A DNA stretch of 64,000 nucleotides from positions 1 through 64,000 of the forward strand of contig NZ_AFNU02000009.1 in NCBI RefSeq assembly GCF_000215935.2, in the 5' to 3' direction. A model generated the notes under the pieces. That model saw nothing but the letters and a program-made list of their open reading frames with translations, ran no database searches and was not told the origin of the DNA. Origin of the DNA: Haloplasma contractile SSD-17B. Its GTDB lineage: Bacteria; Bacillota_I; Bacilli_A; Haloplasmatales; Haloplasmataceae. The position numbers were made by a program, and so were the translations under genes. Shown piece by piece: positions 21,802 through 45,622 of this stretch (positions are counted from its first letter, which is position 1; every line of letters starts with the position of its first letter).

Positions 21802-23136
21802 TTAAATTATAAATGTCGTAATTGAATGTTCTTTAAGCTCCACATCAGTACCTAGTCCTTTATGTGTAAGAGCAAATCGCACAACTTCATCACTTTCGTT
21901 TTGAACGACCACTGCAATCGTACCATCAGTATTTTTAAAGGCTGTTGCATAAACCAACCCATCCGTATTTAGACTTAAACCAATGCGTACCGCTCCAGGT
22001 CTTATATATCTTGAAAATTGTCCTATATAGTAATATGAACTATTATAAATTAATTCTTTTGTGTTACGATCCGCTAGTATAGGCGCGTCACATAAGTTCT
22101 GTACGTGATTTGGACCACCCGTTTCGTTTAACACGAGATTCCAGTCAATCCATCCTTCAGACCAGTTATTAAAGTCACCAATTATATTACGACCATAACG
22201 TTCACCAGTGAACCATTCACCTGGTTTAGGACCTCCTTCTTGACATCCTTCAGTGAAGATTATGTGTTTATCAGGGAACATATTATGTATAACCGATAAA
22301 TTCTCAAATGCTTCACTTCCATACCAGTGGTTTCCTACTCCCCATACATATTTGTTTGCTTCATCATCAAGCAACACCGTAGAAGCACGGTCTATTAATA
22401 TGTCACGGTTATGGTCCCAAATTACAATCCCTATGTCACTTAGCCCTTCTTTTTCAAGTGTTGGACCTAAATAATTCTTAACAAAATCACGCTCTTCTTC
22501 TGCAGAGTATATACAAGAATCCCAGGTTTGAACTGCAGCTGGCTCATTTTGAACACTAACTGTAAAGATATCGATTCCACGCTCTCTCATTCCACGGATA
22601 TACTTAACATAATAGTTTGCCCATGACTGGTAATATTCAGGTAATAATTGCCCTCCATGGTTCATTTCCTTATTTGTCTTCATAAACGCAGGTGGACTCC
22701 ATGGTGAAGCTAATAATTTGATCTCCCCACCCTTTACATTCATTGCATCTTTAATCATAGGGATCACCCATTGATCCTCATGAGACATATCAAATGTTTC
22801 TAGGTCTTTGTCACCTTCTGAAACATATGTGTAATTCCCTAATGCAAAGTCGCATGAATGGATATGAGTACGACCAATCGTATAACCTAATCCATTCGTT
22901 TCATCAAAATACGCTTTAATTGCTTCTGTACGCTTTTCTTCAGGCATCTCACTTAGAGTATATGCTGAAGCCTCAGTGAATGCACCACCAAAACCGACAT
23001 GCGTTTGAAATGTTTCTGTATCATTAATCGCAATCATATTACCTGTAGTTGTAAATTTCTTACTTAATACTAGTGGTTCTTTTTCAGTAAGTCGATCTCC
23101 TGAGTTTTGTGCGGTTCGTATTACTTTTACATTCAT
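21802..23136 (-). CDS. Glycoside hydrolase family 30 enzyme, intracellular
   Basis: A 444-residue GH30 protein with no signal peptide. The acid/base glutamate is E198 (SVQNEPAAV) and the nucleophile E296 (IFTEGCQEG); GFGGAFTEASA near residue 48, SPWSPPAFMKTN near 144 and WGVGNHWYG near 265 are conserved. GH30 members are glucosylceramidases, beta-1,6-glucanases, xylanases or beta-glucosidases. With two GH16 enzymes nearby, cleavage of beta-1,6 links (side branches of laminarin) after uptake is the best inference. A small C-terminal beta-sandwich completes the fold. It is last in the operon. Confidence 0.88.
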   Translation of the reverse strand: MNVKVIRTAQNSGDRLTEKEPLVLSKKFTTTGNMIAINDTETFQTHVGFGGAFTEASAYTLSEMPEEKRTEAIKAYFDETNGLGYTIGRTHIHSCDFALGNYTYVSEGDKDLETFDMSHEDQWVIPMIKDAMNVKGGEIKLLASPWSPPAFMKTNKEMNHGGQLLPEYYQSWANYYVKYIRGMRERGIDIFTVSVQNEPAAVQTWDSCIYSAEEERDFVKNYLGPTLEKEGLSDIGIVIWDHNRDILIDRASTVLLDDEANKYVWGVGNHWYGSEAFENLSVIHNMFPDKHIIFTEGCQEGGPKPGEWFTGERYGRNIIGDFNNWSEGWIDWNLVLNETGGPNHVQNLCDAPILADRNTKELIYNSSYYYIGQFSRYIRPGAVRIGLSLNTDGLVYATAFKNTDGTIAVVVQNESDEVVRFALTHKGLGTDVELKEHSITTFII

Positions 23137-23394: not shown

Positions 23395-24339
23395 TTAATT
23401 ATTTCTTATATCATCAAGTGATGTAATCTCATTTGATTGGTAAACACGGATATAGTCGATTTCCATTGTCTGAGGGAAAATAGTATCATCTACACCATTA
23501 TCGCCATCAATCTTACGTGCACCGCCCCAGTTTCCACCAATAGCTATATTTAGAATTAAATAAAACTCTTGATCAAACGGCCAGCGACCAGAATCTGGAC
23601 ATGAAAAGTATTTAGTTGGAGTAAATTCATAATATTTTTCATCATCTACAAAGAATTTGATTTTGTCAGGAAGCCACTCGATCGAATACTTATGGAACGT
23701 TGTATCGACATTTTCAACTTCTATACTTCCACCTTTTTGAGTCCCTTTCATATGATTGTAATCACCTGTATGGACGGTTCCATGTATTTCATTCATATCA
23801 TAACCAACATGTTCCATTATATCGATTTCACCAGAGTCAGGCCATCCACCGTACTGCCAGTCCTTAGGTAACATCCAGATTGCAGGCCACGTTCCTCGAC
23901 CAGCTGGGATTTTAGCCATGACATCGATTTTCGCATATTTAAAGCTTTTGCTCTCCTCAGTTGTAATTTTAGATGATGTATAATGACGTGATACATAATC
24001 TTCTTTTCGAGTTTCTATGATTAATTTACCATCTAGAACTGAGAGATTCTCACCTTCAGTATAATATTGAAGTTCATTATTTCCGAAACCATAACCACCT
24101 GTGGCATAGCTCCATTTCGTCTCATCTAGTTCATTTCCATCAAACTCATCCGACCAAATTAAATCATATGTTAAGTTGTCTTCCTCATAAGTATAATCTT
24201 TGGCTTTACAAACTTTTGCTTCTTCTGTAGCTTCAGTAGTTGTTGTAGTCGTGATTATATCCTGGTCTGTGTTGCAGGCACTAAGTATAAATAGTCCCAA
24301 TATAGGAATAATCATTTTTATCATTTTTAATTGATCCAT
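23395..24339 (-). CDS. GH16 beta-glucanase lipoprotein (laminarinase type)
   Basis: A 314-residue enzyme. Start is 24339, where GGAGG lies nine bases upstream; the much longer open frame overlaps the permease gene and is not coding. The signal peptide ends in a lipobox FILSAC, so Cys22 is lipidated and the enzyme is held on the outer face. A short Thr-rich linker (30-37) follows. The GH16 catalytic motif GEIDIMEHVG has E171, D173 and E176, and WPAIWMLP precedes it. This is the beta-1,3(4)-glucanase type. It would cut beta-glucan outside the cell for the adjacent ABC importer. Confidence 0.9.
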   Translation of the reverse strand: MDQLKMIKMIIPILGLFILSACNTDQDIITTTTTTEATEEAKVCKAKDYTYEEDNLTYDLIWSDEFDGNELDETKWSYATGGYGFGNNELQYYTEGENLSVLDGKLIIETRKEDYVSRHYTSSKITTEESKSFKYAKIDVMAKIPAGRGTWPAIWMLPKDWQYGGWPDSGEIDIMEHVGYDMNEIHGTVHTGDYNHMKGTQKGGSIEVENVDTTFHKYSIEWLPDKIKFFVDDEKYYEFTPTKYFSCPDSGRWPFDQEFYLILNIAIGGNWGGARKIDGDNGVDDTIFPQTMEIDYIRVYQSNEITSLDDIRNN

Positions 24340-24358
24340 GCTTTTTACCTCCATAATA

Positions 24359-25342
24359 CTATTCACCAGTAATACCAGTATTTTCAATACCTTCAATAAA
24401 TTGTTTCTGAGCAAACAGATAAATGATAAATAGTGGTAGGATTGCAATAATCGTAGCGGCCATTTTATACGTTTCATTAATTTTTGCCTCAGTTGAAGTA
24501 CTTGGTAATCTCGAACCAAAGTTACTATCAAAAGTAGATAACTGTTGTGGTAATAATTGTAGACCATCGCCTATAAATATCCCAGTTTGATGACTCTCAT
24601 TCCAATTCCATACAAATGAGAATAAGAATACAGTTGTAATGATTGGTATTGACATCTTAATAAAGATATGCCAGAACACTTCAACAGAAGTCGCACCATC
24701 CATTCTAGCAGCTTCATCGAGTGAAGCAGGAATCATCTTAAAGAAGCTATAGAAAATTAGTATTAAGATTGCTGAATTAATTCCTTGACCTCCTAGATTA
24801 AACATTAACTGAGGGATAAATGATCCAAATAAGGTAGTACCTAATGTATCTCCTATCGATTCAATCATCATAATTCGTGGAATGATGACAACAGGAACTG
24901 GTAAAATAAATGAAACTAAAATCATAACAAACCAGAATTTTTTAAATTTAAAATTATACCTAGCAAGCGCAAAACCAGCAAGTGCCGTTATAAAAGTTTG
25001 TGTGATTGCTAGCAATAATGAGAACCAAATCGAGTTAAATAAGGATTTTCCTAAATCTAATACAGATGCTGCAATACCAAAGTTCTTAAATGAAAATGAC
25101 GTTGGAATCCAATCTACCTCAGGATTAACAAGATCTTGCTTTGACATAAATGCCATTGAAATCATTTGTAACAACGGATATAAGAAAACATAACTAATAC
25201 CAATTAATAATATGTAAATACCGAGTTGAGAAATAATTTTTTTTGTCTTATGAGAAACTAATAACTTCTGATTAAGTATTTCGGGGGTTAGATTGCGGTT
25301 TAATTTTAAGTCACTAAGTTTATTCAATAGTCTTTTCTTCAT
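24359..25342 (-). CDS. Sugar ABC transporter permease (MalG type)
   Basis: A 327-residue permease with six membrane segments and the cytoplasmic EAA loop EAARMDGATSVEVFWHIFI near residue 225. Start is at 25342, an ATG eight bases after GGGGG; an earlier in-frame GTG lies inside that site. It overlaps the upstream permease gene by 23 bases. With its partner it forms the membrane channel of one of two importers in this locus. No ATPase gene is here. Confidence 0.88.
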   Translation of the reverse strand: MKKRLLNKLSDLKLNRNLTPEILNQKLLVSHKTKKIISQLGIYILLIGISYVFLYPLLQMISMAFMSKQDLVNPEVDWIPTSFSFKNFGIAASVLDLGKSLFNSIWFSLLLAITQTFITALAGFALARYNFKFKKFWFVMILVSFILPVPVVIIPRIMMIESIGDTLGTTLFGSFIPQLMFNLGGQGINSAILILIFYSFFKMIPASLDEAARMDGATSVEVFWHIFIKMSIPIITTVFLFSFVWNWNESHQTGIFIGDGLQLLPQQLSTFDSNFGSRLPSTSTEAKINETYKMAATIIAILPLFIIYLFAQKQFIEGIENTGITGE

Positions 25343-26366
25343 TAGTTTCGCCCCCTTCACTTTCCTTTTTAACTTTTATGTTCTTTCCTGTATTGATTAA
25401 TGTTTTAAATATTTTTTTAAATGTAATAGTTTGTCTCATTTGATTACGACGTTGAATTTTTCGTAATTTCTTAGCTTGTTTCTCTCTAATATCCTCTTTA
25501 CGAAGAACTTTTTCACGCTCACCAAGGATAAAAAATACGATTCCAATTAATAGTAAGACCACTAATGTGAACACCCAAGAATAGGTAGCAGCGAAACCAT
25601 ATTGATTATTACGTAAACTTTCACTTATAACACCATAAACGGGATTAATATTATATAAACCAAGTTGAACAATTGTATAAATTGAAGCAACTAAAGCGGT
25701 TGATTTAATCATTGGAATTGTAATTTTCCATAAAGTTTGCCATGCATTTGCTCCATCAATTTGTGCGGCTTCATAAAGTGAACGATTAATTTTTTGCAAG
25801 CCGTTTATATAAAGAACGATTGGTATACCGGTAAACCATAAGATTATTGAAAATTCATTAAACAAAAATCCAATTCCTTCTGCAATGATTGGTGAATAAT
25901 TTGAAATGATTCGGAACACAAATATATCGGTTATTTGTTCTATCTCGGTCGTTCCTGCATCCATTAGTTGTTGCATAACAGAACCTGAAAGAATGATAAC
26001 AGGAAGGAAATAGATCATCCTGAATCCAGCGCGAAATTTAATCTTTTGATTTAACAATACTGCTAAAATAAAGGAAATGATAATAATCGTTGGAACATAG
26101 ACGACTTCTTTAATCACAAAATCTAATAACGCTGTTGGAAAATTGGTGTTTACAAGAAATGAATCTAGATAATTATCCATACCTACCCATGTCATATTCC
26201 ATCCACGAACTGTCTTATCTACTACAGTGAAACTTAAGTAAATTGTATACAAAAACGGAAGTGCAGTAAATAGGATGAATCCAAGAAGCCATGGAGCCAT
26301 AAATGAATAACCAGCTATATTGTGTTTTCTGTTTATTGAATATTTTTTCTTCTGTTTAGCTTTCAT
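25320..26366 (-). CDS. Sugar ABC transporter permease (MalF type)
   Basis: A 348-residue permease with six membrane segments. The EAA loop EAAQIDGANAWQTLWKITIP is near residue 195, and a long basic C-terminal tail (after LGEREK) is unusual. Start at 26366 has GGGAG eight bases upstream. It is placed 17 bp after the DUF5696-like gene and is part of the second permease pair of the operon. Confidence 0.87.
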   Translation of the reverse strand: MKAKQKKKYSINRKHNIAGYSFMAPWLLGFILFTALPFLYTIYLSFTVVDKTVRGWNMTWVGMDNYLDSFLVNTNFPTALLDFVIKEVVYVPTIIIISFILAVLLNQKIKFRAGFRMIYFLPVIILSGSVMQQLMDAGTTEIEQITDIFVFRIISNYSPIIAEGIGFLFNEFSIILWFTGIPIVLYINGLQKINRSLYEAAQIDGANAWQTLWKITIPMIKSTALVASIYTIVQLGLYNINPVYGVISESLRNNQYGFAATYSWVFTLVVLLLIGIVFFILGEREKVLRKEDIREKQAKKLRKIQRRNQMRQTITFKKIFKTLINTGKNIKVKKESEGGETNEEKTIE

Positions 26367-26382: not shown

Positions 26383-28866
26383 CTAAAGTACTCTAGCAGA
26401 TAATGGATTTATTGTTTGGTTGTTATAAGTTACTGTAGTATCAGTATAATTTATAACAACTTGTTTTCCATTACTGTAGGTATTAATAATAACACCGTTT
26501 TGATAGACTTCTCGGTCAATCCATTCACTATTAATAACATCTTTTAGACTTCCATTAACCTCATTATAGACTTCATCAATTAATTTTTGATACTGAGTAA
26601 ATTCAGTAGAATAAAACTCTGATGAGTTCGTAGAGTTCAAGTTATATGAAGGCTTTTCTGTCAACATGAAAGATGGATAAACATTATAATCAATCATTCG
26701 TAATTGATCCTTCACAGTGTAGAATGAAAAGTTAGAATACGGTGCATATACTTCCATCGTACCATTTAAAACAAGTTGTAAAAATGGAACTGTATCTGTT
26801 TCATATAAATATTGCGTTGGATAAACAGGTGCATCAAGGTAACGATCAACATAGTCCCAAGTATATAGGTTTGGATCTTTTGCGTTAATCATATGTGACT
26901 TGTTTGCTTCTTTAAATCCTTTGCGATATAGCTCTATTGAATCGGTAACTGAGCGTTCCTTATCATCGTAGTCACTATAGAGATTATTTGAAATCCCTTC
27001 AATTGTAGTTGAATTAGTATTTAAATCCTCAATTTCATCTAAGTGAATTCCCAACCAGTCAATACTTTTATCAGGACGTGCGTAGTTAATTTCTGTAACT
27101 GGTGCATCGATTATATTTAAATATTTTGTAATATAGTAATTATTTATATGACGAGCAGCATTCTGTCTAATTGACATCTGTTCTTCATTAATATGCGTGT
27201 AGTCCTGAGCTAACGATAAATCAACTCCAGTCTCTCTCATCGAGTCAATTACATCTTGAAAATCTCGCTTCCTACCAACTTCATTATTCCAGTCAGTCTC
27301 CCAAGGTCTTGATAATGTGATTCCACCTTGTTGCCAACCGTATAAACCACTATTTATATTTGTTATTCCCGTGTTCATGACTTCACTAAGAATAGATTCT
27401 ACATCGTCAATATCAGTTAGTACGACATCTTTATATCCTAAAATATTCTTCTTAACATCAGACATAATAAAATCGAGTCGAATTGGGATTTCATTATACG
27501 CTTGCTCTTCAATGGATAACGTATTTGTCTCAATTAAGTACTTCTTGTATTGTTTTGCCATCCCAACATAGTCAGCTGGTAGTTCATCATGACTCCCATC
27601 ACCAGCTAAAAAATCATAAGTCATTTTAATATCAAATTTGTTATGTTCTTCTAATCGTTCCATATTACCAGATGTTCGACTGTAGGGTTGGTAATATCTT
27701 TTATTTAATTCAAATCTTGGATACGCCCATGTATAGTGAGTCATATTCTCTTCAGGGCTTACTATAATTTGCATAAACTCTGAAGCACTTTCAGCATAGC
27801 CAACAAAAGCATTTTGTCTGTTACCATGAGCAACACCATAAACAGGCATAACTGGATTATTGAATGGCACGTAGTTTGGCTCATAGAACTCTGCTCTAGT
27901 ACTATGACCATAATCTTTACCATATACATCCCCTGTATAGTTCTTTAAGGACGTTTCATAATCTTTAAATCGAATCAGTGCACCAGAACCGTCTGGTACT
28001 AACACGTAACCTGGCATCATCTCATTTGGTATCACAATATCATAATCTTTTTCATCATCATCATCATTTGGATTGGGATCACCATAGTATACTTTTTGAC
28101 CACCAGATGCCCCAAAGAATGGATTAAAGATAATGGCTGCTAATGAGTTTAAACTCTCACCAGATAGTTCTTCATGTTTCACTTCATAAGACATACCATC
28201 TTCATTAAAGTAAATGTGAACATCAACACTTAAATCAAATAGGACCTCATACTTATAATTTTCTTCATAAAAGTCAACATTTAAAATATAGTGATTGTCA
28301 GTTCCACTAACACGTTTTAGGTCAGATGTCACATTTTCATATCCAGCACTTGAAAGCCGATTAATACTATCAGTTACATCATAATACTCGATCGATAACA
28401 ATGAATTTGCAAGACCTGTATACGTTGTGTTTAAGCGGTCTTCATAAGGTTCACATAATTCTTCTTTCTGATCTTCAGGTGCGTCATCGCATATATCTTT
28501 TGCATCTTTTCTAAATGGTACATCAAGTCCCGTCTTCCATAAATAGTTTTGATTATTACGTGTATCATGAATAGCAATTACATCTCGTTCATCTTTAAAA
28601 TAATAAGCGATACCCTCAGATAGATCTGGATTTACAGTATCAGGTGTTACTGTTTCTGAATTCGAAAGATCTGATGGCATGTATCCTTCTGTTGCATATA
28701 ATAATTCAAATGCTGTGGTATCTGAAATTGCATTCTCTAAATCAAACGACTTCGGAGGCAATGATGTATCCCTATTACTAGGCACATAATTAGCAGATAC
28801 TGTGAGAGAAACCACAGTAATAATTAATAAAAATATACCTAAAACTCCTTTTTTATTTCGCAACAT
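26383..28866 (-). CDS. Large exported DUF5696-like protein
   Basis: An 827-residue protein with a signal peptide or membrane anchor at residues 8-27. I match it to the DUF5696 group, which occurs beside sugar ABC genes in Paenibacillus-like bacteria; this is from memory of gene neighbourhoods, not a search. A Tyr- and Asp-rich beta part (with an acidic stretch DDDDEKDYD near 265) is followed by a region near 510-600 that looks like a TIM barrel (GLYGWQQGGITLSRPWET, then a HINEEQM helix). It may be a glycan-binding or degrading surface protein. No catalytic residues can be named. Start 28866 has AGGAGG upstream; the frame from 28896 overlaps the previous gene. Confidence 0.72.
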   Translation of the reverse strand: MLRNKKGVLGIFLLIITVVSLTVSANYVPSNRDTSLPPKSFDLENAISDTTAFELLYATEGYMPSDLSNSETVTPDTVNPDLSEGIAYYFKDERDVIAIHDTRNNQNYLWKTGLDVPFRKDAKDICDDAPEDQKEELCEPYEDRLNTTYTGLANSLLSIEYYDVTDSINRLSSAGYENVTSDLKRVSGTDNHYILNVDFYEENYKYEVLFDLSVDVHIYFNEDGMSYEVKHEELSGESLNSLAAIIFNPFFGASGGQKVYYGDPNPNDDDDEKDYDIVIPNEMMPGYVLVPDGSGALIRFKDYETSLKNYTGDVYGKDYGHSTRAEFYEPNYVPFNNPVMPVYGVAHGNRQNAFVGYAESASEFMQIIVSPEENMTHYTWAYPRFELNKRYYQPYSRTSGNMERLEEHNKFDIKMTYDFLAGDGSHDELPADYVGMAKQYKKYLIETNTLSIEEQAYNEIPIRLDFIMSDVKKNILGYKDVVLTDIDDVESILSEVMNTGITNINSGLYGWQQGGITLSRPWETDWNNEVGRKRDFQDVIDSMRETGVDLSLAQDYTHINEEQMSIRQNAARHINNYYITKYLNIIDAPVTEINYARPDKSIDWLGIHLDEIEDLNTNSTTIEGISNNLYSDYDDKERSVTDSIELYRKGFKEANKSHMINAKDPNLYTWDYVDRYLDAPVYPTQYLYETDTVPFLQLVLNGTMEVYAPYSNFSFYTVKDQLRMIDYNVYPSFMLTEKPSYNLNSTNSSEFYSTEFTQYQKLIDEVYNEVNGSLKDVINSEWIDREVYQNGVIINTYSNGKQVVINYTDTTVTYNNQTINPLSARVL

Positions 28867-30919
28867 TTCGAATCGCCTCCTTGATAATCGTTTCAATGAA
28901 TGTATATAATTGATCCCACATAATTGTGATAATTAGAAGCACGACTGCAAGGATCACCATAAATGTAATTGTTAATGCAATACTTTTAAATGTAGTTCGA
29001 ATTTGATAATTATGTGTTTCTTGTATACCGAGTTGAAGGTTAATAAATGTCCAAACTTGACCGATAAGTAATGCAATACTTAAAAAGAATGTTTCATTGT
29101 AGGTCATAATGTGTGACATTAGAGTAATAAACGTCATTGCAAGCATTATAGGTGCTAGTGAATACATAAACATGATATAAATTTGTTTTAATCCACCTTC
29201 TCCATCATTGATCGATGTAACAAGATAATTACAGACTATGAATAGGAAGATTAGTGAGAAGAACCCTAGTACAATAGAATTAAAGTCCATGTCTTCAACT
29301 TGTGTAAATTGATAAATAAAGCCTTTACCAATTGTATACCACATGAATATTACAAAGAATACAATTAAGATTAGAGTAGCGGCAAGGGTCGAACCTTTTC
29401 TTCCTTTTTTAAGTTCATAATAAGAATCGATTGGATGTCTCATCACTCTAAACATATAAAGAAAATCTTTAATTACTTTAACATGATAGACTTTTCTAAA
29501 GACAGATTTAGGAACATCTAAAATCTGGTACTTCTTATCAAAGATTTGTAGAAGTTTTAATACAATTGCAATTACTACTGTTAGAATAATAATTATTTTT
29601 AAATTGTTTTGAAGCCATATATTTCGAACTTCCCAATAGGCTTCTGAGTAGAACGGACGATTTCCTGCAATTTCAAAGTGTTCCATTGCTTGTTCATACT
29701 CTTGTTGATATAAATAGTTTTTACCAATATTGTTATGCGCTAATACTGACATTTGGTTGAGTCTCAATACGCCATCCCAAATTTCAACCGCTTCTTCATA
29801 ACGTCCATCTTTGTAAATACGTAATGCCTCATATATTCGATTTGCATATTCAGTAGGCTTATACGACTGGAGAAATGATTGATCATCATCAGCCGTCCAA
29901 ATACGACCTTGTGAATCGACAGCAATCGTAGCTAGTGAACTATATAGACCAGAAACATCCTCCCGATTCATACCAAAACCAGGATCAAGATTATTAGCAC
30001 CAAAGCTATATATATAATCCCCCTCAGATGAATACACAAAAATTGTTCCTGTCTTCATTGCTGCATATATAATTCCATCTTCATCCACATAAATATCTAT
30101 TGCATCATCTTGTGAGAAAAGAGGATGTGAAAAAATGTTACTCCCAGCAATATTATGTTTCTTTACACCATTAAACTGTGTTCCCATTGTGGTCGAGTAA
30201 ACAATCCCCTCTTGGTCAACAAAGATATTCGTTAATGTTAAAGGAACTTTATCATCTAAACTTTCCTTTTGTTCTTCAGTAAAAATTTGTTCTTGTAACC
30301 GTTCTACAAGCGATAATGTTACCTTATTTTGTGTAAAGTATCCTAGAAACTCACCCGAGTTAGATAATTGGATGACTCCATCATAAACACCTTGACCTAT
30401 AATAAACATATTTCCGCGGTTATCAACAGCAACACGCATTGGTTCATACGCAGTGTCTCCAAATGATGGTGCAGTAGGTCGACCAAACGATTCTATTAAT
30501 TCACCATCTGAAGTAAATCGAAAGATCGTTTTTGCTCCTGAATCTGCCACATAGATATCATTAGATTCAGTTACAAATAGTCCACGCGGCTTGTCAAACT
30601 GTTCATGGGAAAGTTCTAAAATGACTTCATCTTGATTAATATCATATTTTAAAACACGTTTATTTCCTGTATCAGCAATATATAAAATATCCTGATCATC
30701 GATAAATATGTCTTCTGGTTCTTTTAATCGTAATTCCATTACCGTTCGATGAGGTAAATATGCATCCTGGGTTCTGACTGGTTGCCCTTTTGAGTTCAGA
30801 GTCACTGTATAAGTAGTTGCAGGGGATGCATTAGCTGTTAGTGTAAACATAGGTAAAACTACAGCTATAAAAACCAGTAGTGTCTTAACTAAATTTTTAA
30901 TTCTTCTATTTTTTAGCAT
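28853..30919 (-). CDS. NHL beta-propeller / TPR / Yip1-like membrane protein
   Basis: A 688-residue protein with four parts. A signal peptide (1-31, ending ANA) leads to NHL repeats (about 45-355, for example PEDIFIDDQDILYIADTGN and PRGLFVTESNDIYVADSG). A TPR pair (about 360-435) follows, then a membrane segment (about 445-465). The C-terminal third has five hydrophobic segments of Yip1 type. The propeller should be outside. Such proteins accompany DUF5696 and sugar ABC genes elsewhere; a role as an importer-associated receptor or scaffold is inference. Its stop overlaps the next start. Confidence 0.8.
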   Translation of the reverse strand: MLKNRRIKNLVKTLLVFIAVVLPMFTLTANASPATTYTVTLNSKGQPVRTQDAYLPHRTVMELRLKEPEDIFIDDQDILYIADTGNKRVLKYDINQDEVILELSHEQFDKPRGLFVTESNDIYVADSGAKTIFRFTSDGELIESFGRPTAPSFGDTAYEPMRVAVDNRGNMFIIGQGVYDGVIQLSNSGEFLGYFTQNKVTLSLVERLQEQIFTEEQKESLDDKVPLTLTNIFVDQEGIVYSTTMGTQFNGVKKHNIAGSNIFSHPLFSQDDAIDIYVDEDGIIYAAMKTGTIFVYSSEGDYIYSFGANNLDPGFGMNREDVSGLYSSLATIAVDSQGRIWTADDDQSFLQSYKPTEYANRIYEALRIYKDGRYEEAVEIWDGVLRLNQMSVLAHNNIGKNYLYQQEYEQAMEHFEIAGNRPFYSEAYWEVRNIWLQNNLKIIIILTVVIAIVLKLLQIFDKKYQILDVPKSVFRKVYHVKVIKDFLYMFRVMRHPIDSYYELKKGRKGSTLAATLILIVFFVIFMWYTIGKGFIYQFTQVEDMDFNSIVLGFFSLIFLFIVCNYLVTSINDGEGGLKQIYIMFMYSLAPIMLAMTFITLMSHIMTYNETFFLSIALLIGQVWTFINLQLGIQETHNYQIRTTFKSIALTITFMVILAVVLLIITIMWDQLYTFIETIIKEAIRNVAK

Positions 30920-30936: not shown

Positions 30937-31809
30937 TTACTTAATTCCTGAATGACTCATTGTATTCATAATTCGAGACTGCATAAAGATAAACATAATT
31001 AAATTTGGTAAAAACAAAATTAATCCGGCAGCCGCTGCCATCCCTGCCCCAGCAGTTATATTTTGTTGTTGATTCGTTAATGTCAAAATATAGAATGAGA
31101 ATGATTTTAATGTCTCATCTTGAATATACCAGTTTGATGGTTCAGGGTTCCCCCATGTAAACTGGAAGGTTAACATCGCAACAGTTGCAAGTGCTGGCTT
31201 TGTTAAAGGAATAATAATTTTAAATATTATATGTAAATCATTTGCACCATCTAATTTAGCTGCTTCTATAATCGAATCTGGAATTTGATCGATAAACTGT
31301 TTAACTAAAAAGACATAAACAGGGGTTGCTAAATAAGGAATGATGTGTGCCCAGAATGTATTTAATAATCCTAAACGTGCCACTATTAAGTATCGTGGTA
31401 TAACAACAGCTGTTATTACAAACATTAACGCCATTTGGTTAATACTAAACAATTTTTGCTTTGCTTTAAATTGTTTCTTAGATAATACATATCCACCCAT
31501 TGTAGAAATAATGATCGTTATTGAAATCATTACCACTGCCACTGTAATTGAGTTGAATAGATATCGTGTCATCGGCACTCCAGTTGTAGATGACGTTCTA
31601 AATAAATCTTGAAAGTTTTTAAGCGTTGGTTTTTGCACTAGAAACCTTGGAGGGAACATAAATAGTTCATCTAATGGTTTAAATGCTGTACTGAAAATGT
31701 ACACAACAGGAAGTAACATGACAAGCGCTAATGGTATTAATATAAGATACCATTTTAGTTGTGATCGATGAAAATTCTTTGGATTTATTTTTGTACCTTG
31801 TAAACTCAT
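30937..31809 (-). CDS. Sugar ABC transporter permease (MalG type)
   Basis: A 290-residue permease with six membrane segments; the EAA loop EAAKLDGANDLHIIFKIIIP is near residue 190. Start at 31809 is the ATG after GGAGG; an earlier in-frame TTG overlaps that site. It follows its MalF-type partner by 15 bases and precedes the NHL/Yip1 gene. Confidence 0.88.
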   Translation of the reverse strand: MSLQGTKINPKNFHRSQLKWYLILIPLALVMLLPVVYIFSTAFKPLDELFMFPPRFLVQKPTLKNFQDLFRTSSTTGVPMTRYLFNSITVAVVMISITIIISTMGGYVLSKKQFKAKQKLFSINQMALMFVITAVVIPRYLIVARLGLLNTFWAHIIPYLATPVYVFLVKQFIDQIPDSIIEAAKLDGANDLHIIFKIIIPLTKPALATVAMLTFQFTWGNPEPSNWYIQDETLKSFSFYILTLTNQQQNITAGAGMAAAAGLILFLPNLIMFIFMQSRIMNTMSHSGIK

Positions 31810-31824
31810 ATGAAACACCTCCAA

Positions 31825-32766
31825 TTAATCTTTTTCGCCAAATAAAATATACGCGGTTTTTGAGAATCCCCAGATAATTAAGAGTAATACAACTGATAAT
31901 GCTGCAGCATAACCCATTTCATATCGAATCATACCAAAATCTTCAATATGGTTAATAATCAACTGTCCTGAATATTGTGGAGTTGGGTTCTGACCCGATA
32001 ATGCAACACCAATGTATCCGTTATTAAAACTCTGTACAATCGCCATAACGGCACCGAATAACATCTGCGGTTTCATTGACGGAATCGTAATATGAATAAC
32101 TTCTTGGAATTTGTTTTTTATACCATCAATGTAAGCGGCTTCGTATAATTCTTCGTTTCCATTTAATACTCCAGCTAACATCGCCAAGAACCCTATCCCC
32201 ATTGCACTATATAGAGATACAATGATCATAATGTCCATTAACCAAGCTGGATCTTGTAAAAATTGAATCGGTTTTGAGATGAAATCATTTGATAGTAAAA
32301 CAGAGTTTAACCATCCGTTCTCATCACCGTTAAATAATACCCTAAATATTACTTGCATTAAAATTGGTCCTAACATAGAAGGAGTATATATAGCAAGTGC
32401 TATAATTGTTCGAGGTATACGTTGAATCTGAGCTAGCATCCATGCAAGAATGAATGCTAGCATATATCCACCAGGACCTGTAATTAAAGCATACTTAAAT
32501 GTGTTTGGTAATACATATTTTAAGAAAACGGGATCCTTTGTAAGGACTGTAATATAATTCATTAAGCCCCTATATTCAGGTGCTTCTATTAAGTTAAAAC
32601 TTGTAAGTGATAATCCTACTGCTATTGCCACAGGGATTGCAATAAATAACGAGAATAATAGAGCATATGGTAGCAGTAAGAAAAATACAGAGAGTGCGTC
32701 GGAAAGTTTTCCTGTTTTAAAGTCATGTTGAACACGCTGTTTTAATTGTTTATATTTCTGTTTCAT
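31825..32766 (-). CDS. Sugar ABC transporter permease (MalF type)
   Basis: A 313-residue permease with six membrane segments; the EAA loop EAAYIDGIKNKFQEVIHITI is near residue 205. GGAG lies eight bases before the start. With the next gene it forms the first permease pair, directly after the 995-residue binding protein, which is probably its receptor. Confidence 0.88.
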   Translation of the reverse strand: MKQKYKQLKQRVQHDFKTGKLSDALSVFFLLLPYALLFSLFIAIPVAIAVGLSLTSFNLIEAPEYRGLMNYITVLTKDPVFLKYVLPNTFKYALITGPGGYMLAFILAWMLAQIQRIPRTIIALAIYTPSMLGPILMQVIFRVLFNGDENGWLNSVLLSNDFISKPIQFLQDPAWLMDIMIIVSLYSAMGIGFLAMLAGVLNGNEELYEAAYIDGIKNKFQEVIHITIPSMKPQMLFGAVMAIVQSFNNGYIGVALSGQNPTPQYSGQLIINHIEDFGMIRYEMGYAAALSVVLLLIIWGFSKTAYILFGEKD

Positions 32767-32777
32767 AATTGCATCTC

Positions 32778-35765
32778 CTATCCTCTATTATCTTTAGCTG
32801 CCTCTATTTGCTCTTCAATCCAAAATACATCCCTAATTGTATATGGCTTAATTGGGTTCCCTTTTTGGTCTAAATAGCCAAATTCGATCATCTTACGTTC
32901 TATTTCTCGATTTATAACAATTGTTTCTTTGTCAATTGCTATTCGAGCCGGTTCTCCCTCGAACACAGCACTATTCCAGATATTAGATATTCCACGTTCT
33001 AGCATATATTGTCCCGGTGTTCTCGGAACATCACGTAACCATTTTACTTGCTCTAAAATTACGTCTTTATCTTTCTTTTCTATTGGCGAGTTTCTCACTG
33101 CGTTGACATTCCCTGACAACCATACGTATTCAGGACCATAGGTCGCTTGAAGTGTGTATGCAAATTCTGTTTGTGTCTCAGTACTCATCCACCACTTTAA
33201 GAATTCCCAACTCGCATCAGGTTTATCAGTAGATTCCATAATGACATTACCGAAGCCGTTCGCTATATACCAACGACTAATTGAACCATCGTCTTGTTCT
33301 GTACCAGGATATGGTGCTAATTCCCACTGTCCAACAAGCTCTGGTGCAGCATTTTTTAATTGAATATAAGTGTTGAAGTCAATAATACCAATTGGCAATT
33401 CATTATATCTAAATGAGTTATAAAATATTTGAACCTGTTCTGGTAAAGAATACTTAGTAAATAATTCTGATAAATAATTCAAACCTTTTACTGAATTAGG
33501 GTCATTAATTGCAGTTGTAATACCGTCTGAATCATAGTGTTCTACATTATACAGTTTTCCGTTATTCTGATAAATAAACGGAGATGTCTGATAGAACCAT
33601 TTTTGTGAGCCACCACCTGCAATAGGATGATAGAAATTCATTCCATAACGTTGTAATTCAGGTAATAAGTCCGTTACATCATTCCATGTATCAGGAACAT
33701 CTAGATTTAAAGCTCTAAACGTATCTTTACGATATACTACCGCATGGAAATCAAGTGTCTCAGGAAGTGCATATACGCGTTCATTTAACACGTATGGAAC
33801 AAACGCACCCGGTGCAAAGTCTCCTGCTACTTGCCAGAAATCTTCAAATGAAGTCAGGTCGTAAGCAGCCCCCCTGATTGCAAGGTCATAAGGCATATAA
33901 GATAATAGACCTAACGCTAAATCAGGATCTTGATTACCAGCTGTAGCCATTAATAATTTATTTGGATCTGGCATAACGGAAATTTTTACTTTAATGCCTG
34001 TTCTCTCTGTGAAATCTGAGTCCGCCATTTTCTGCATAATATCAACATAAGTCATTGGATGATTTACCCATATTTCAAGTACTTCAGGGTCTGTCTCTAG
34101 CTTATACTTATCTGATGTAAATGTAGACCAGAACGACCTTATTCCTGCGCCCATACGTTTCACGACACCTGCATTAGGCTTCGGTAATTTCTTATCATTA
34201 TATAAGTAAATCCCATCTAAGTACAAGGGTTGAGTACTAAATCTGTCCATTGAATCACCAAGTAGCTGAGCGACTGACCCAGATCCACCTGACAAGTCTT
34301 CTAGGTATAATGGTAATTCATCTGGTTTTTCTCTCATCTCTTGTATTTTATAAATCGCTTTTTGCAAATAAGATAATGTTGCAGAGTTATAACTATTCGG
34401 TGCATACTCATCTAAGTCTTGAACCATATCTTTTATTATTACTTCGTAAGCTTCTAAATAAGCATCTGTTTCAGGGATATAGCGTGTAAGTCTCCATGTT
34501 CTATTTTCATCGACTTCTTTCCCTGTAATTTTCTTTATTTCTAATGAGAATTCATTAACATGATCAATAATTAATTGAATATTTCTGATTGCTTCTGATG
34601 CTGGTTGTCGCTCTGCTCTAAGTGTGATTGTGTGCGTTCCTTTTGTTAAATAGAACTCATAAGGATCACCATTATTATCAGATAACGTTTCATTTTCCCA
34701 ATTTCCTGATTTTGTTGTTTTGAATTCATATGCTTTCATTTCTTCAAAAGGAATTTTTCCATTGATTTTAATTGTTCTAAACACACTAAAATCACTCTTA
34801 TCATTCATATAATGGAATGCTAATTTGTATAAACCGTCTTCTTTAGCCTTTAATTGATAGGTTAATTCATGTCCTGCTGTATCCCAAGAAAGTCCATCAA
34901 TTACGTTAAGTTTCTTATCAACAGCATCAAATGGCTTTACAGATGGAACTTTTAATGCGTTCATACGAACAAAAGATGAATTCTTATTGATATAAGACGT
35001 TGCATTTATATACTCTAATGATTTTACTGGTTGTCCTTTATGTAATGCCTTATAGTCATCATATGTTTTGATTTCAGTAGGTGAAACCACATTTAGTTCT
35101 CCTACATATAAAAGATTGGATGTCACATTTTCAATGCGAATTGTGTTTTGTCCTTCTTCTAAATAGAACAATAACGGTAGAACCGTATCATAAGTATTAT
35201 TATAAAGTTCAGTTGTTTGCCAATCAGTAATTAAATTCTGAGGTGGTAACGATTCATCACCATATGTATCTGTGCTAAAGATTTTAGTGGAATCTTCCCA
35301 CAACAAAGGGATATCGATTGTTTCTGTATCACTATATTGATGTTTATTATTTATTTTAATAGAAAGGGTTAAGTTATTAAGTGAATTGGTAGCCGTTTTA
35401 TAATCTAGTTGAATATGATAATAGCCTGCTTCTGACACATTAACCTCATAGTTCGCTGCCTCGTTACGAGTTAATGCAACCACATCCTGCTCATATTCTT
35501 GATCAAAAATTAAGTCTGTATTAGTTAGATTGGCTTTCGCGGGTTCTAATGAGTAATCTAATGTAATTTCTTTCATAAAGTCTAAATATGTAAACCTAGG
35601 ATTTTCTAGTGATTGATTCAAAAAATTGGTTGCGTTTGTCACCATTTCTTCGGTGATTTCACCTTTAGGTTTATACGTTGCATTTTTTTTATTGTTAATT
35701 GAGTTACCAACAAATAGAGCGATTATTAAACTAACTATTGTGATTAATACAATTAATTTCTTCAA
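32778..35765 (-). CDS. Giant solute-binding protein fused to carbohydrate-binding-like domains
   Basis: A 995-residue exported protein, about twice the normal size for a binding protein. The N-terminal hydrophobic segment (4-24) has no Cys, so the protein is likely anchored or released rather than lipidated. Two beta-sandwich units follow (about 100-240, with NEAANYEVNVSEAGYYHIQL; and about 290-415, with KEDGLYKLAFHYMNDKSD), then a helical linker (420-540). An extracellular solute-binding domain fills about 555-970 (LEIWVNHPMTYVDIMQKM, DFTERTGIKVKISVMPDP, then the Trp-rich C-terminus). The sandwiches resemble carbohydrate-binding modules and may hold glucan chains. It sits before the first permease pair. 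Confidence 0.82.
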   Translation of the reverse strand: MKKLIVLITIVSLIIALFVGNSINNKKNATYKPKGEITEEMVTNATNFLNQSLENPRFTYLDFMKEITLDYSLEPAKANLTNTDLIFDQEYEQDVVALTRNEAANYEVNVSEAGYYHIQLDYKTATNSLNNLTLSIKINNKHQYSDTETIDIPLLWEDSTKIFSTDTYGDESLPPQNLITDWQTTELYNNTYDTVLPLLFYLEEGQNTIRIENVTSNLLYVGELNVVSPTEIKTYDDYKALHKGQPVKSLEYINATSYINKNSSFVRMNALKVPSVKPFDAVDKKLNVIDGLSWDTAGHELTYQLKAKEDGLYKLAFHYMNDKSDFSVFRTIKINGKIPFEEMKAYEFKTTKSGNWENETLSDNNGDPYEFYLTKGTHTITLRAERQPASEAIRNIQLIIDHVNEFSLEIKKITGKEVDENRTWRLTRYIPETDAYLEAYEVIIKDMVQDLDEYAPNSYNSATLSYLQKAIYKIQEMREKPDELPLYLEDLSGGSGSVAQLLGDSMDRFSTQPLYLDGIYLYNDKKLPKPNAGVVKRMGAGIRSFWSTFTSDKYKLETDPEVLEIWVNHPMTYVDIMQKMADSDFTERTGIKVKISVMPDPNKLLMATAGNQDPDLALGLLSYMPYDLAIRGAAYDLTSFEDFWQVAGDFAPGAFVPYVLNERVYALPETLDFHAVVYRKDTFRALNLDVPDTWNDVTDLLPELQRYGMNFYHPIAGGGSQKWFYQTSPFIYQNNGKLYNVEHYDSDGITTAINDPNSVKGLNYLSELFTKYSLPEQVQIFYNSFRYNELPIGIIDFNTYIQLKNAAPELVGQWELAPYPGTEQDDGSISRWYIANGFGNVIMESTDKPDASWEFLKWWMSTETQTEFAYTLQATYGPEYVWLSGNVNAVRNSPIEKKDKDVILEQVKWLRDVPRTPGQYMLERGISNIWNSAVFEGEPARIAIDKETIVINREIERKMIEFGYLDQKGNPIKPYTIRDVFWIEEQIEAAKDNRG

Positions 35766-35859: not shown

Positions 35860-37494
35860 TTACTCAAAGTCCTCATCAGTGTAGTTATAGAATTCTTTTA
35901 ATCCGTCAACTATTTCTTGTTCAGAGTCTTCAAAATGCCCGTTGATCTCCGTGTTCCAGCCTGGTAATTTCGCTTTAACATTATCTAACCAGTTCGCATC
36001 AGTTCGAGCTGCTCCTGCAAGTTCAGGATTCCACATATTTAACCAATTATATAAATTTTCAACTCGAGCTTCTTCTTCTGTATGCCAATATGGATATGTT
36101 TTATCTGAAACATCCCAGAATTGTCCTTCTTTCCATAATTCTAACACTTTATGGAATCCAGGCATGCGATTTGGATCTCTGTATAAAGCATGCGTTTCTG
36201 TTGTATACCAGATGTCCATTTGCTCGTCGAACTCGTCACCAGTTACTAATGGTAATGAATCATTCATTGCTGTCTTATAGTTATCTCCGTCTTTAAATAG
36301 TTGGTCTGCTCTAGCTTGCCAAGCAGCTGTATCTCCAACCCAGAACGAAGCAAATGTATATGCAACTTGAACTTTTTGCTCTTCTTCAGGTGTACATTCA
36401 TTATTTCCATCTTCTTGACAGTAATTATAAACTGATAATGGATCTAATACAACCCCAACAGTATTTGGTAAATAATCAGTTGCAGGACGTGGGTAGATAT
36501 CCCAATCAGCTGCTAATACTTTACCCCAATGTGAATCAGCAGGATGAGCAGCATCTCCCATCATCCATGGATCTCCACCAAGAGTTAACAGTCTGTTATT
36601 TTTGAAGAAGTTATAAGACCAGTAACCATTTTCTTCCATAACTTCTGTAGGGATTTTACCAATTTCGTTTTGTGGATACACTGCATACTTCGACCACTCA
36701 GGAACGTAATCTAATAAGTCACGTACTTCATCTGAATTGACATTAATATGGTCTCCAGTACCATCATATTCGTTTAATTGTTTTGCCATCGTGTTTGAAC
36801 CTGTCATAAAGAATGACATCTCTACATCCATAGCTCCATAGAAATTTTCCATATCCGCTTGAGAAATAAAATCTGTATAGTCATCAAGATCCCAATCTGG
36901 CTCTGGAACATCTAAGTTATTTTGTTCAGCTAACGATTTATTTACGAATACTCCCCAAGGTAATAAATATTGAGGAAGACCTGCTTGAACACCATAATAG
37001 TTCATCATATCCATTACTGACTCGTTAAACGATTGGTATAATGGATCATCTTCAAACATTGATAAGTCTGCTACTAAACCTTTTGATAAATCTCCAGGTA
37101 AGTCAGTTGAAGCCCAGATACCTGGGTAGTGTCCATGTTGTGATTTGAAGTTATCGCGGTGTTGTTCCCACGTTGTCACTATGACACCATCTTCATAAGT
37201 ATCAGGTCCATCTTTCTTCGCATAAACGTTAATTTTTACATTAGGATATTCCTCATTAAACGCTTTAGCTACTGCATATATAGTCGCTTGGTTTTGTCCT
37301 GTTAAGTCATCGGCACTTAAATCTTGATGTCCGATATTCTCATAATACTGACCATCACCAGACCAAAGCATAATTGTTACCTCACCTGCTACGTCTTTAC
37401 CGATCCCTTCGTACGTAGGTTCATCTTCTCCGAAGCATCCAGTAAGAGTAACGGCTACCATTACTAATAATGAAAACAAGAAAATCTTTTTCAT
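35860..37494 (-). CDS. Extracellular solute-binding lipoprotein (sugar ABC)
   Basis: A 544-residue lipoprotein. The signal peptide ends in LTGC (Cys20), so it is lipid-anchored. The mature part is a two-lobed binding protein (EVTIMLWSGDGQYYENIG start, PNVKINVYAKKDG strand, FASFWVGDTAAWQARA and a Trp-rich C-terminal region). It is longer than typical MalE-like proteins (about 420), as for oligosaccharide receptors. It is the first gene of the glucan import operon and has its own cre-like site. It could serve either permease pair. Confidence 0.88.
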   Translation of the reverse strand: MKKIFLFSLLVMVAVTLTGCFGEDEPTYEGIGKDVAGEVTIMLWSGDGQYYENIGHQDLSADDLTGQNQATIYAVAKAFNEEYPNVKINVYAKKDGPDTYEDGVIVTTWEQHRDNFKSQHGHYPGIWASTDLPGDLSKGLVADLSMFEDDPLYQSFNESVMDMMNYYGVQAGLPQYLLPWGVFVNKSLAEQNNLDVPEPDWDLDDYTDFISQADMENFYGAMDVEMSFFMTGSNTMAKQLNEYDGTGDHINVNSDEVRDLLDYVPEWSKYAVYPQNEIGKIPTEVMEENGYWSYNFFKNNRLLTLGGDPWMMGDAAHPADSHWGKVLAADWDIYPRPATDYLPNTVGVVLDPLSVYNYCQEDGNNECTPEEEQKVQVAYTFASFWVGDTAAWQARADQLFKDGDNYKTAMNDSLPLVTGDEFDEQMDIWYTTETHALYRDPNRMPGFHKVLELWKEGQFWDVSDKTYPYWHTEEEARVENLYNWLNMWNPELAGAARTDANWLDNVKAKLPGWNTEINGHFEDSEQEIVDGLKEFYNYTDEDFE

Positions 37495-37754: not shown

Positions 37755-38504
37755 CTACTCATCATTTTTTTGATATATACGAACATAGTCCACTTCCAAC
37801 TTCTGGGGAAATATTGCATCATCAATTCTTCCACCCAAGAACCCTCCTAATGCAATATTAAGAATAAGATAGAATGGTTGATCAAATGGCCAGCAAACTT
37901 CATCTGTATCATTATTACAATTGTTTTCTGCTTTATAAAACGTCTTATAGGGAGTATTGTCTACGAGGAAGCGAATATACTCAGGTGTCCATTCAACTGT
38001 ATATATTTTAAATGTTTCACTAACACCTTCTATATGATGAAAGTCAGTCAGTTGCGTTTTTTTGTTATGATTGTATTTTTCACTATGTAAGCTAAAATGA
38101 ATCTTGTCCTGATCCCTACCTACATGTTCCATGATATCAATTTCTCCACATAATGGCCATCTTCTGCCTCCTTTAAACGCATCGGATAACATCCAAATAG
38201 CAGGCCAGGTTCCTTGACCTTTCGGTAATTTTGCTTTGATCTCAAATCGACCATATTGCCATGAGTCAATTCCGTTTGTGCTTAATTTAGCGGACGTATA
38301 GTTATTATTCTTATAATCTTCTTTCTTTGCCACAATCGTTAATTTACCTTCTTTAACATATGCATTTTCAATACAATCGGTATAATACTGCTTCTCAGCA
38401 TTTCCAAATCCATGACCTCCTGTTTCAAGGTGCCACTTATTAGGATCTGGTTTGCCTTCATAATCGAACTGATCCTCCCATACTAAACTATATGAACCTT
38501 CCAT
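37755..38504 (-). CDS. GH16 beta-glucanase, no signal peptide
   Basis: A 249-residue GH16 enzyme. The catalytic motif GEIDIMEHVG has E121, D123 and E126, and WPAIWMLSDAF precedes it. The protein starts directly with the catalytic fold (MEGSYSLVWEDQFDYEG) and has no signal peptide or lipobox, so it should act inside the cell on imported oligosaccharides. Start 38504 is eight bases after GAGGAG; a GTG-type start at 38522 is not needed. It has its own promoter with a LacI-type operator and is separate from the import operon. It is about 45% identical by eye to the lipoprotein GH16 around the active site. Confidence 0.88.
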   Translation of the reverse strand: MEGSYSLVWEDQFDYEGKPDPNKWHLETGGHGFGNAEKQYYTDCIENAYVKEGKLTIVAKKEDYKNNNYTSAKLSTNGIDSWQYGRFEIKAKLPKGQGTWPAIWMLSDAFKGGRRWPLCGEIDIMEHVGRDQDKIHFSLHSEKYNHNKKTQLTDFHHIEGVSETFKIYTVEWTPEYIRFLVDNTPYKTFYKAENNCNNDTDEVCWPFDQPFYLILNIALGGFLGGRIDDAIFPQKLEVDYVRIYQKNDE

Positions 38505-38584
38505 AAGATATACTCCTCTCACGAATTACAATTTAATCTTTTTTACAGACTATTTTATATTTAATTAATCGTGTTAACAGTTTA

Positions 38585-41634: not shown

Positions 41635-43014
41635 CTATAAACCTAGACTATTTTTAAGCAATTCAAGTGCTTTCTCAGGATATTTTAATGAAAGAACACC
41701 TAGTGATGCCATAATATAATCCTGATCAATTAAAATTTTAGTATTTTTAGATGGAATTAGTTTGGTGTCATCTTGTATTCTAAGTAACGTATTAAGCATC
41801 CCAATTCGGTTAGGTAACCTTGTTAAAGCTCCACCTGTACCAATCACATAGTCCACATTAGTGAGGTCTTTTCCTTCTGCTACTTTCATTCTCCCTGATG
41901 AACCATAAAGACTTCTAAATACGCCAGAGTGGCGATTAAGAGCAATCGATAATGCTTCTTTTGTCAAACGTTCAACCATTCTTTTTTCTAATTCGGTTTC
42001 TGGGATTGGTTTAAAATTTTTTAATAAGGATTCAAGTTGTTCCTCCGTGATTTCTAAATCACGAGTAATTGCATCCTTACCAATCATGTCAATAATATTG
42101 TGCCTGTTTATATAAACGCCAAGATCACCTTCTACCGTTCGTTTGGCTTTTGGTTCAGGGTTCACTAAAATTTTATTAATTTCTTCAGATCCAGTTGTAA
42201 CCGAGTGTAGATCGGTAGTTGCTCCACCTACATCAAACACAATTAGATCTCCGATTTCTTCTTCTAACAACTTGGCGGCAACCATGACTGAGCCTGGAGT
42301 TGGAATAATATTTTGATCAACCGTTTCCTTAACCTTATTCATACCTGGTGCATGTATGATATGCTGTTCAAATACATCTTGTATTATTTGTCTTGTAGGT
42401 TCTACGTTAAGCGTATCAATCTTAGGATACACATTTTCTGTAATATGTAGATAATTAGATTGACCACATTCTTCAAAGATTTCTTTGACTGCATCATGAT
42501 TGACACAGTTACCGGCATAGATTACGGGGATGTTCAACCTTAATTCCGCAATTTCATAGGCGTTATTTAGGGCAGTATTCTTTTCCCCGTAGTCTACTCC
42601 ACCTGCAATCAGTATAATATTCGGTTTCACTTTGTTTACTTTCTTTAAATCAAATCGAGTTAGATTACCTGCAGTCACTAAATGAATATTAGCACCTGCA
42701 CCTAGTGCAGCTTCTCTCGCTGCTTTCACGGTCATGTCATAAACTAGACCGTGAACCGTCATTTTAAGTCCGCCTGCAGCACTGCTTGTTGCAAAAACCT
42801 CAGATTCTTTTAAATTTTGTCTCCCAATTTGTGCCTCTATTGTCTCAATTGCTTGATTTAAACCAATACCGACATCACCTTCATCAACTGACGTTGGTGC
42901 CTGACCTTGAGCCACAAATATCGGAGTTATTCCGTCCTCATGAATTCCTGAAAATGCGTTCACTACAGTCGTTGTACTCCCTATTTCAGCTACAAGAACA
43001 TCTATTTTAGTCAT
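41635..43014 (-). CDS. glmL: GlmL/MutL-type accessory ATPase for the aminomutase
   Basis: A 459-residue protein of the MutL/GlmL family with an ASKHA ATPase fold. VAEIGSTTTVVNAF (phosphate 1 motif) lies at the N-terminus, and VFDVGGATTDLHSV (phosphate 2) is near residue 262. In clostridia this family sits beside B12 mutases; a role in reactivating the cobalamin enzyme is the common view but not proven for OraE. The start overlaps the last eight bases of oraE. The next gene is orr. Confidence 0.85.
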   Translation of the reverse strand: MTKIDVLVAEIGSTTTVVNAFSGIHEDGITPIFVAQGQAPTSVDEGDVGIGLNQAIETIEAQIGRQNLKESEVFATSSAAGGLKMTVHGLVYDMTVKAAREAALGAGANIHLVTAGNLTRFDLKKVNKVKPNIILIAGGVDYGEKNTALNNAYEIAELRLNIPVIYAGNCVNHDAVKEIFEECGQSNYLHITENVYPKIDTLNVEPTRQIIQDVFEQHIIHAPGMNKVKETVDQNIIPTPGSVMVAAKLLEEEIGDLIVFDVGGATTDLHSVTTGSEEINKILVNPEPKAKRTVEGDLGVYINRHNIIDMIGKDAITRDLEITEEQLESLLKNFKPIPETELEKRMVERLTKEALSIALNRHSGVFRSLYGSSGRMKVAEGKDLTNVDYVIGTGGALTRLPNRIGMLNTLLRIQDDTKLIPSKNTKILIDQDYIMASLGVLSLKYPEKALELLKNSLGL

Positions 43015-45217: not shown

Positions 45218-45579
45218 TATTTGCTCACCCCAAAACTATAAAGGACATCATCCCAGTGATCGCCCTCAATTAACTTAAGCCCTGCTTCTCTTATCGGTGT
45301 CTTCTTTAACGAAGCTGCTCTATAGACAACGTGGCCTGCGCCTTTTCCTATTAATCCATGATCAATTACTTTTTCTACAATTGCCTTTGCTTCTAAACTT
45401 GAGAATCCCATACGAAGTAAAACCGAACGTTCGATTGCAGGACTCGTGTAGTTCTTTGCAAGTTTAAGTAAGGGTTCAACAACCTGCTCTGATAATTGCC
45501 AGAAACGTTGTTTTAGTTCTTCATCTGATAAGTTTTTTAGATGTACTCTTCTTTTTTCAAAGTCATCTTGACGTGTCAT
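45217..45579 (-). CDS. oraS: D-ornithine 4,5-aminomutase, small subunit
   Basis: A 120-residue partner of OraE. The sequence DDFEKRRVHLKNLSDEEL near the start and the SPAIERSVLLRMGFSS segment are typical. The start is set at the ATG at 45579, giving the usual family length; an in-frame TTG at 45603 would add eight residues that other members lack. Ribosome site here is weak (GGAA). It is 43 bases after ortB and overlaps oraE. Confidence 0.88.
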   Translation of the reverse strand: MTRQDDFEKRRVHLKNLSDEELKQRFWQLSEQVVEPLLKLAKNYTSPAIERSVLLRMGFSSLEAKAIVEKVIDHGLIGKGAGHVVYRAASLKKTPIREAGLKLIEGDHWDDVLYSFGVSK

Positions 45580-45622
45580 TCTTTTTTCCAACGTATTCAC
45601 CAACCTTTATATGATATAAGTA

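Follow-up and report, generated by a model that had tools for sequence, protein, structure and literature searches.

Glycan uptake by Gram-positive bacteria is usually pictured as the work of a lipoprotein together with permeases. A lipoprotein anchor is usual for Gram-positive CUT1 receptors but does not strictly define them. The receptor studied here belongs to a known kind, the receptors of CUT1 ABC importers, and the locus of one of its relatives has already been described. According to main-text passages of that description, the xylan degradation locus (XDL) of Caldicellulosiruptor bescii encodes two CUT1 transporters, is arranged as xloEFG-X-GH129-axoFGE followed by xylan enzymes, and is expressed more highly on xylan (PMC8579813). 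The same passages report that oligosaccharide and polysaccharide use in C. bescii needs the shared ATPase MsmK (PMC8579813). For Athe_0174, the first gene of the xylan-induced XDL of Anaerocellum (Caldicellulosiruptor) bescii, passages of a second paper give a 28-base XynR/XDL operator oligonucleotide (PMC12285236).

This oligonucleotide has one exact match in a 19.9-kb stretch of a genome (G200), 147 bp upstream of the start of a solute-binding protein (SBP) gene. The G200 locus encodes a 954-residue SBP, two permeases, an NHL/Yip1 protein, a DUF5696 protein, two more permeases, a second SBP, and GH43-CBM6, GH10, GH39 and GH10 enzymes. The 954-residue SBP carries both of the N-terminal beta-sandwiches described below. 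The operator match, the gene order and the two sandwiches together place XloE (Athe_0174) in the long receptor family. The main-text passages searched on the XDL contain no mention of N-terminal domains in XloE.

The window analysed here is a 64,000-nucleotide stretch of the Haloplasma contractile SSD-17B genome (contig NZ_AFNU02000009.1, positions 1 to 64,000). The following genes were annotated around the receptor:

37755..38522, minus strand: GH16 without a signal peptide, probably cytoplasmic (Glyco_hydro_16, E 4.6e-24; sequence)
35860..37494, minus strand: second, conventional lipoprotein SBP, 544 aa, lipobox LTGC (SBP_bac_1, E 5.2e-7; lipobox)
32778..35765, minus strand: long SBP, 995 aa, XloE-type, receptor of a CUT1-type ABC importer (translation; SBP_bac_1; 80 related loci)
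31825..32766, minus strand: permease A (BPD_transp_1, E 1.8e-11)
30937..31824, minus strand: permease B (BPD_transp_1, E 1.5e-11)
28853..30919, minus strand: NHL propeller/TPR/Yip1 membrane protein, 688 aa (Pfam NHL, TPR_2, Yip1; hydrophobic segments)
26383..28896, minus strand: DUF5696 protein, 837 aa, exported, GH129-like fold (PF18952, E 1.1e-149; model)
25320..26366, minus strand: permease C (BPD_transp_1, E 9e-7)
24359..25360, minus strand: permease D (BPD_transp_1, E 6.6e-15)
23395..24324, minus strand: GH16 lipoprotein, lipobox LSAC (Glyco_hydro_16, E 4e-23; sequence)
21802..23136, minus strand: GH30 without a signal peptide, resembling endo-beta-1,6-glucanase (Glyco_hydro_30; NCBIfam)

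The receptor and permease A genes are separated by 11 bases, and permeases A and B by 0 bases. Permeases A and C are distant paralogues, as are B and D, indicating that the cassette contains two permease pairs. The NHL/TPR/Yip1 protein combines an extracytoplasmic-looking propeller and TPR part with a membrane domain that follows it. No ATPase gene was found within the cassette; two OB_MalK-type ATPases are encoded elsewhere in the H. contractile genome. The mechanically called open reading frame of the downstream GH16 (23395-24567) overlaps permease D, and the start at 24324, which gives the lipobox, is more likely. The GH30 protein scored 291 bits against the NCBIfam endo-1,6-beta-glucanase model, under the 700-bit cut-off. 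Elsewhere in the window, genes for D-ornithine 4,5-aminomutase (OAM alpha and the large subunit) are grouped at 41635-47089 with those for a PLP enzyme and a MutL-family protein; this cluster probably serves the fermentation of ornithine. Two neighbouring genes of the TldD/PmbA metallopeptidase family lie at 18429-21154.

The 995-residue ABC receptor recognized at 32778-35765 by the first-pass annotation, which gave no strand, was confirmed on the minus strand by its translation and by the SBP_bac_1 match; its TTG start codon is preceded by AAGGAGG. The protein is divided as follows:

35694..35765, minus strand: N-terminal hydrophobic segment, aa 1-24, without a lipobox (sequence)
35085..35540, minus strand: beta-sandwich 1, about aa 76-227, CBM35-like, with a conserved insertion at about aa 141-199 (model; profile)
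34611..35021, minus strand: beta-sandwich 2, about aa 249-385, CBM35-like (model; profile; duplicate of sandwich 1)
34116..34607, minus strand: helical bundle, about aa 387-550, connecting the sandwiches to the receptor domain (model secondary structure)
32886..34088, minus strand: solute-binding domain, about aa 560-960 (SBP_bac_1 at aa 575-865; conservation)

SBP_bac_1 (PF01547) matches aa 575-865 with an E value of 1.2e-19 (71.9 bits against a cut-off of 26), and 9xf5 and 5ci5 are solved relatives of this domain. Ordinary CUT1 oligosaccharide-binding proteins of this kind (SBP_bac_1; 9xf5, 5ci5) match only the C-terminal 400 residues of the receptor; those listed are chains of 375-460 aa and lack its N-terminal 560 residues. 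The solute-binding domain is also the best-conserved part, with a mean column identity of 0.46 versus 0.23-0.35 in the other folded domains. No lipobox was found in the 995-aa receptor, in agreement with the first-pass annotation, and aa 1-24 probably form an uncleaved membrane anchor or a Sec signal. Among 78 long relatives, a loose lipobox pattern occurs in six, mostly within apparent cleavable signals; none of the 78 carries a clear lipoprotein signal, and one (L046) is ambiguous.

The N-terminal half (aa 28-566) was modelled with AlphaFold2 on an alignment of 64 relatives, giving a mean pLDDT of 93.0 and a pTM of 0.89. In the model, a beta-sandwich at about aa 76-227 is followed by a second one at about aa 249-385 and by a helical bundle at about aa 387-550, the arrangement that had been read from the sequence ahead of the receptor domain. 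A Foldseek search of the PDB returned mainly carbohydrate-binding modules or enzymes containing such modules, dominated by CBM35, CBM22 and CBM6. Isolated CBM35 modules reached TM-scores by target of 0.54-0.68 (2w1w_A, 0.68); as each match spans one domain only, TM-scores by query are expected to be low. Separate profiles of the two sandwiches agree with the fold matches and with the earlier description of the sandwiches as carbohydrate-binding-like, and over both kinds of search CBM35 is the best match. A structure lacking sandwiches, or likeness to non-glycan folds alone, would have spoken against that description, and neither was observed. Sandwich 1 matched the CBM35 modules of CITase and exo-glucosaminidase and CtCBM35 at E values of 2e-4 to 2e-3, and sandwich 2 matched the CITase CBM35 (5x7g) at 4.6e-10. 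Compared with each other, the sandwiches align with an hhalign probability of 99.5 and, judged from their profiles, are tandem duplicates. Designed coiled coils among the profile matches were set aside as due to the helical bundle, and insecticidal Cry proteins among the fold matches as having only a generic beta-sandwich in common.

In a Pfam search of aa 28-566, no family scored above threshold; the only match was Golvesin_C (E 0.011), and CBM_35 was not matched. Among the 64 relatives, at E values up to 0.01, Golvesin_C was found in 28 and CBM_35, weakly, in 19. Since these Pfam matches are weak, we call the sandwiches CBM35-like and do not assign them to CBM35. They share the beta-sandwich fold and profile similarity with the CBM35 modules of CITase (5x7g, 3wnk) and CtCBM35 (2w1w, 2w47). 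Unlike those modules, which are joined to an enzyme, the sandwiches are joined to an ABC receptor through the helical bundle, sandwich 1 has a long conserved insertion, and the receptor falls below the Pfam CBM_35 threshold.

GTDB species genomes were scanned for relatives of the receptor; 113 encoding stretches were obtained and 80 were kept. These approximately 80 relatives have the same architecture and occur in Bacillota, including Acholeplasma, Izemoplasma, Lederbergia, Paenibacillus and Lachnospiraceae, and in Chloroflexota. Gene order was scored in those 65 loci where 8.5 kb or more of sequence follows the receptor gene downstream. In 62 of them the long SBP, permease A, permease B, NHL/TPR/Yip1, DUF5696, permease C and permease D genes follow each other in this order on one strand, and 14 shorter loci agree over their available length. 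An NHL/TPR/Yip1 protein is encoded in nearly every cassette, as two separate genes in Lachnospiraceae-type loci. The three exceptions to the order are Paenibacillus loci (L053, L054 and L056) in which other genes follow permease B, among them GH95 and apiosidase-like genes in L053. They were considered as reduced cassettes holding only the SBP and permeases A and B; this was rejected, as a search of the whole genomes located a DUF5696 gene on the same strand, some 30 kb further downstream, so that the cassettes are split. The H. contractile genome itself has two further complete copies (L084 and L085, on contigs C2 and C8), of which one adjoins a GH13 alpha-amylase and a protein that has pullulanase-associated domains, and the second a SpoIID-domain protein.

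Receptors with CBM-like sandwiches thus make up a widespread, little-studied family in which this form is standard and which is nearly always found with the same set of partners. A unique fusion or an assembly artefact was rejected, given that some 80 loci, and two further paralogues in H. contractile itself, show the same architecture. The first-pass annotation had implied a singular fusion, a view that gives way to the normal architecture of a family that occurs in a seven-gene cassette and counts XloE among its members. The length that it had singled out is indeed unusual beside ordinary SBPs; within the family, where members are 940-1073 aa long, it is the rule.

The profile of the DUF5696 protein matches the GH129 enzyme NagBb (5wzq) at an E value of 4.8e-7, and its model (pLDDT 91.9) has GH129 enzymes as best structural matches (ZgGH129, 8rzk, E 5.8e-30 by Foldseek). 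The overall fold is shared with NagBb and ZgGH129 (TM-score by target about 0.7), whereas the predicted barrel has no acidic residue (D/E) that is strictly conserved among DUF5696 proteins, so that catalysis is not assured. The missing invariant acid would allow for binding rather than cutting, and DUF5696 is possibly a non-catalytic, glycan-binding relative of the hydrolases. DUF5696 is named in no paper of the searched library, and the present analysis supplies it with a fold and a context.

The partnership was further examined in 195 sampled genomes of the phylum. The N-terminal module was found in 30 of these genomes and DUF5696 in 31, with equal counts of the two in 27 of the 31. Out of 83 DUF5696 genes, 77 lie 5.5-7.8 kb downstream of an N-terminal module on the same strand, and the exceptions are mostly on other contigs of fragmented assemblies. 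This near one-to-one co-occurrence, and the retention of DUF5696 even in the three split Paenibacillus cassettes, would also be expected if the sandwiches were protein-docking modules. They would then attach the non-lipidated receptor to either DUF5696 or the NHL/TPR/Yip1 protein in one surface complex, with glycan specificity confined to the SBP and the GH129-like protein. The receptor has no lipid anchor while its conventional partner SBP (544 aa) has one, which also favours docking. However, the nearest solved relatives of the sandwiches are glycan-binding modules, and the permeases and the NHL protein travel in the same cassettes, so that the tie belongs to the whole cassette and does not single out the sandwiches. 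We regard docking as a real possibility, though short of an even chance.

Conservation within the sandwiches bears on the same question. Residues Y235, N287, G311, Y313, R330 and G376 are nearly invariant and are kept across cassettes with unrelated substrates, a pattern that may also suit a structural or protein-contact role of the sandwiches. These residues and the tie to DUF5696 fit docking as well as they fit glycan holding, which makes docking a serious rival. Conservation speaks differently on a third proposal, that the N-terminal part is a spacer or stabilizing scaffold which brings the receptor domain into position at the permeases without any specific binding of its own. The apparent uncleaved N-terminal anchor and the lower conservation of the sandwiches and bundle relative to the receptor domain agree with a scaffold, but the tandem duplication and the nearly invariant residues, kept in two phyla, make it unlikely.

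Wall binding is one role of CBM-like folds in other proteins, and the sandwiches could in principle retain the receptor by binding the bacterium's own cell wall. Penicillin-binding-protein transpeptidases are present in the H. contractile genome, which would agree with such a role. Acholeplasma oculi, A. equifetale and Paracholeplasma vituli, however, belong to a wall-less group, and the same architecture occurs in them, in genomes without a PF00905 transpeptidase. As a general role wall binding is therefore strongly disfavoured, and we consider it extremely improbable.

The hydrolases near the cassettes differ from locus to locus: GH16 and GH30 in the window, and elsewhere GH3, PF10091, GH94, GH95 and apiosidase-like proteins, GH13, or GH10, GH39 and GH43. 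This variation indicates that the module is reused for many glycans. From its enzyme families, the likely substrate of the window cassette is a beta-1,3/1,6-glucan. Signal peptides are missing from the GH30 and from the GH16 that is not a lipoprotein, which suggests that the imported pieces are long enough to require cutting inside. The proposal of the first-pass annotation, that the N-terminal part holds a long glucan near the cell while the receptor captures its ends, plausibly fits the presence of these two enzymes beside the receptor.

The present analysis establishes the architecture of the receptor, its CBM35-like fold and duplication, the cassette and the fixed partnership. On this basis, the protein may act outside the cytoplasm as the receptor of a CUT1-type glycan importer made up of several components. 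An oligosaccharide would be captured by its solute-binding domain and handed over to the adjoining permease pair, with a shared ATPase of the MalK/MsmK type, encoded elsewhere, supplying the power. The CBM35-like sandwiches, linked through the helical bundle, would bind glycans of the same class, holding long chains close to the transporter or orienting them there, presumably in cooperation with the NHL/TPR/Yip1 protein and the GH129-like DUF5696. In H. contractile, beta-1,3/1,6-glucan would enter as fairly long pieces to be cut inside by GH16 and GH30. That the sandwiches, in concert with DUF5696 and the NHL/TPR protein, hold or orient chains while the receptor domain takes their ends is the most likely reading, to which we give about an even chance.

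Neither the CBM-like architecture of the receptor nor its spread nor the fixed partnership with a GH129-like protein was found in the searched literature, most subscription papers being outside it. The same literature yielded nothing direct on fused SBPs or on Yip1/NHL transporters. The receptor, DUF5696 and NHL/TPR/Yip1 proteins remain together across two phyla, wall-less Mollicutes included, which suggests that these bacteria present long glycans to their ABC importers by a conserved mechanism involving several proteins. As A. bescii has a relative of the receptor and a working gene deletion system, the idea is directly testable there.

Compared with the XDL, the window locus has a long SBP with both sandwiches, as XloE does, and its cassette follows the same order of SBP, two permeases, NHL/Yip1 ('X'), DUF5696 ('GH129') and two permeases. 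In the XDL the shared ATPase is encoded outside the locus, and the same probably holds for the window locus. The second SBP comes last in the XDL cassette but lies upstream of the cassette in the window, and the xylan enzymes of the XDL (GH10, GH39, GH43) contrast with GH16 and GH30 in the window. Having these enzymes and none directed at xylan, the window locus represents the same kind of transporter but not a xylan locus. We further propose, as a speculation that is rather doubtful as a whole, that the cassette could form a single surface machine for long-glycan uptake without an outer membrane, comparable to the SusCD system of Bacteroidetes. It would consist of a receptor that holds glycan with an arm of its own, a GH129-like glycan holder that is probably non-catalytic, an NHL/TPR/Yip1 membrane scaffold and one or two permease pairs, and would be adapted to different glycans by swapping the adjoining hydrolases.
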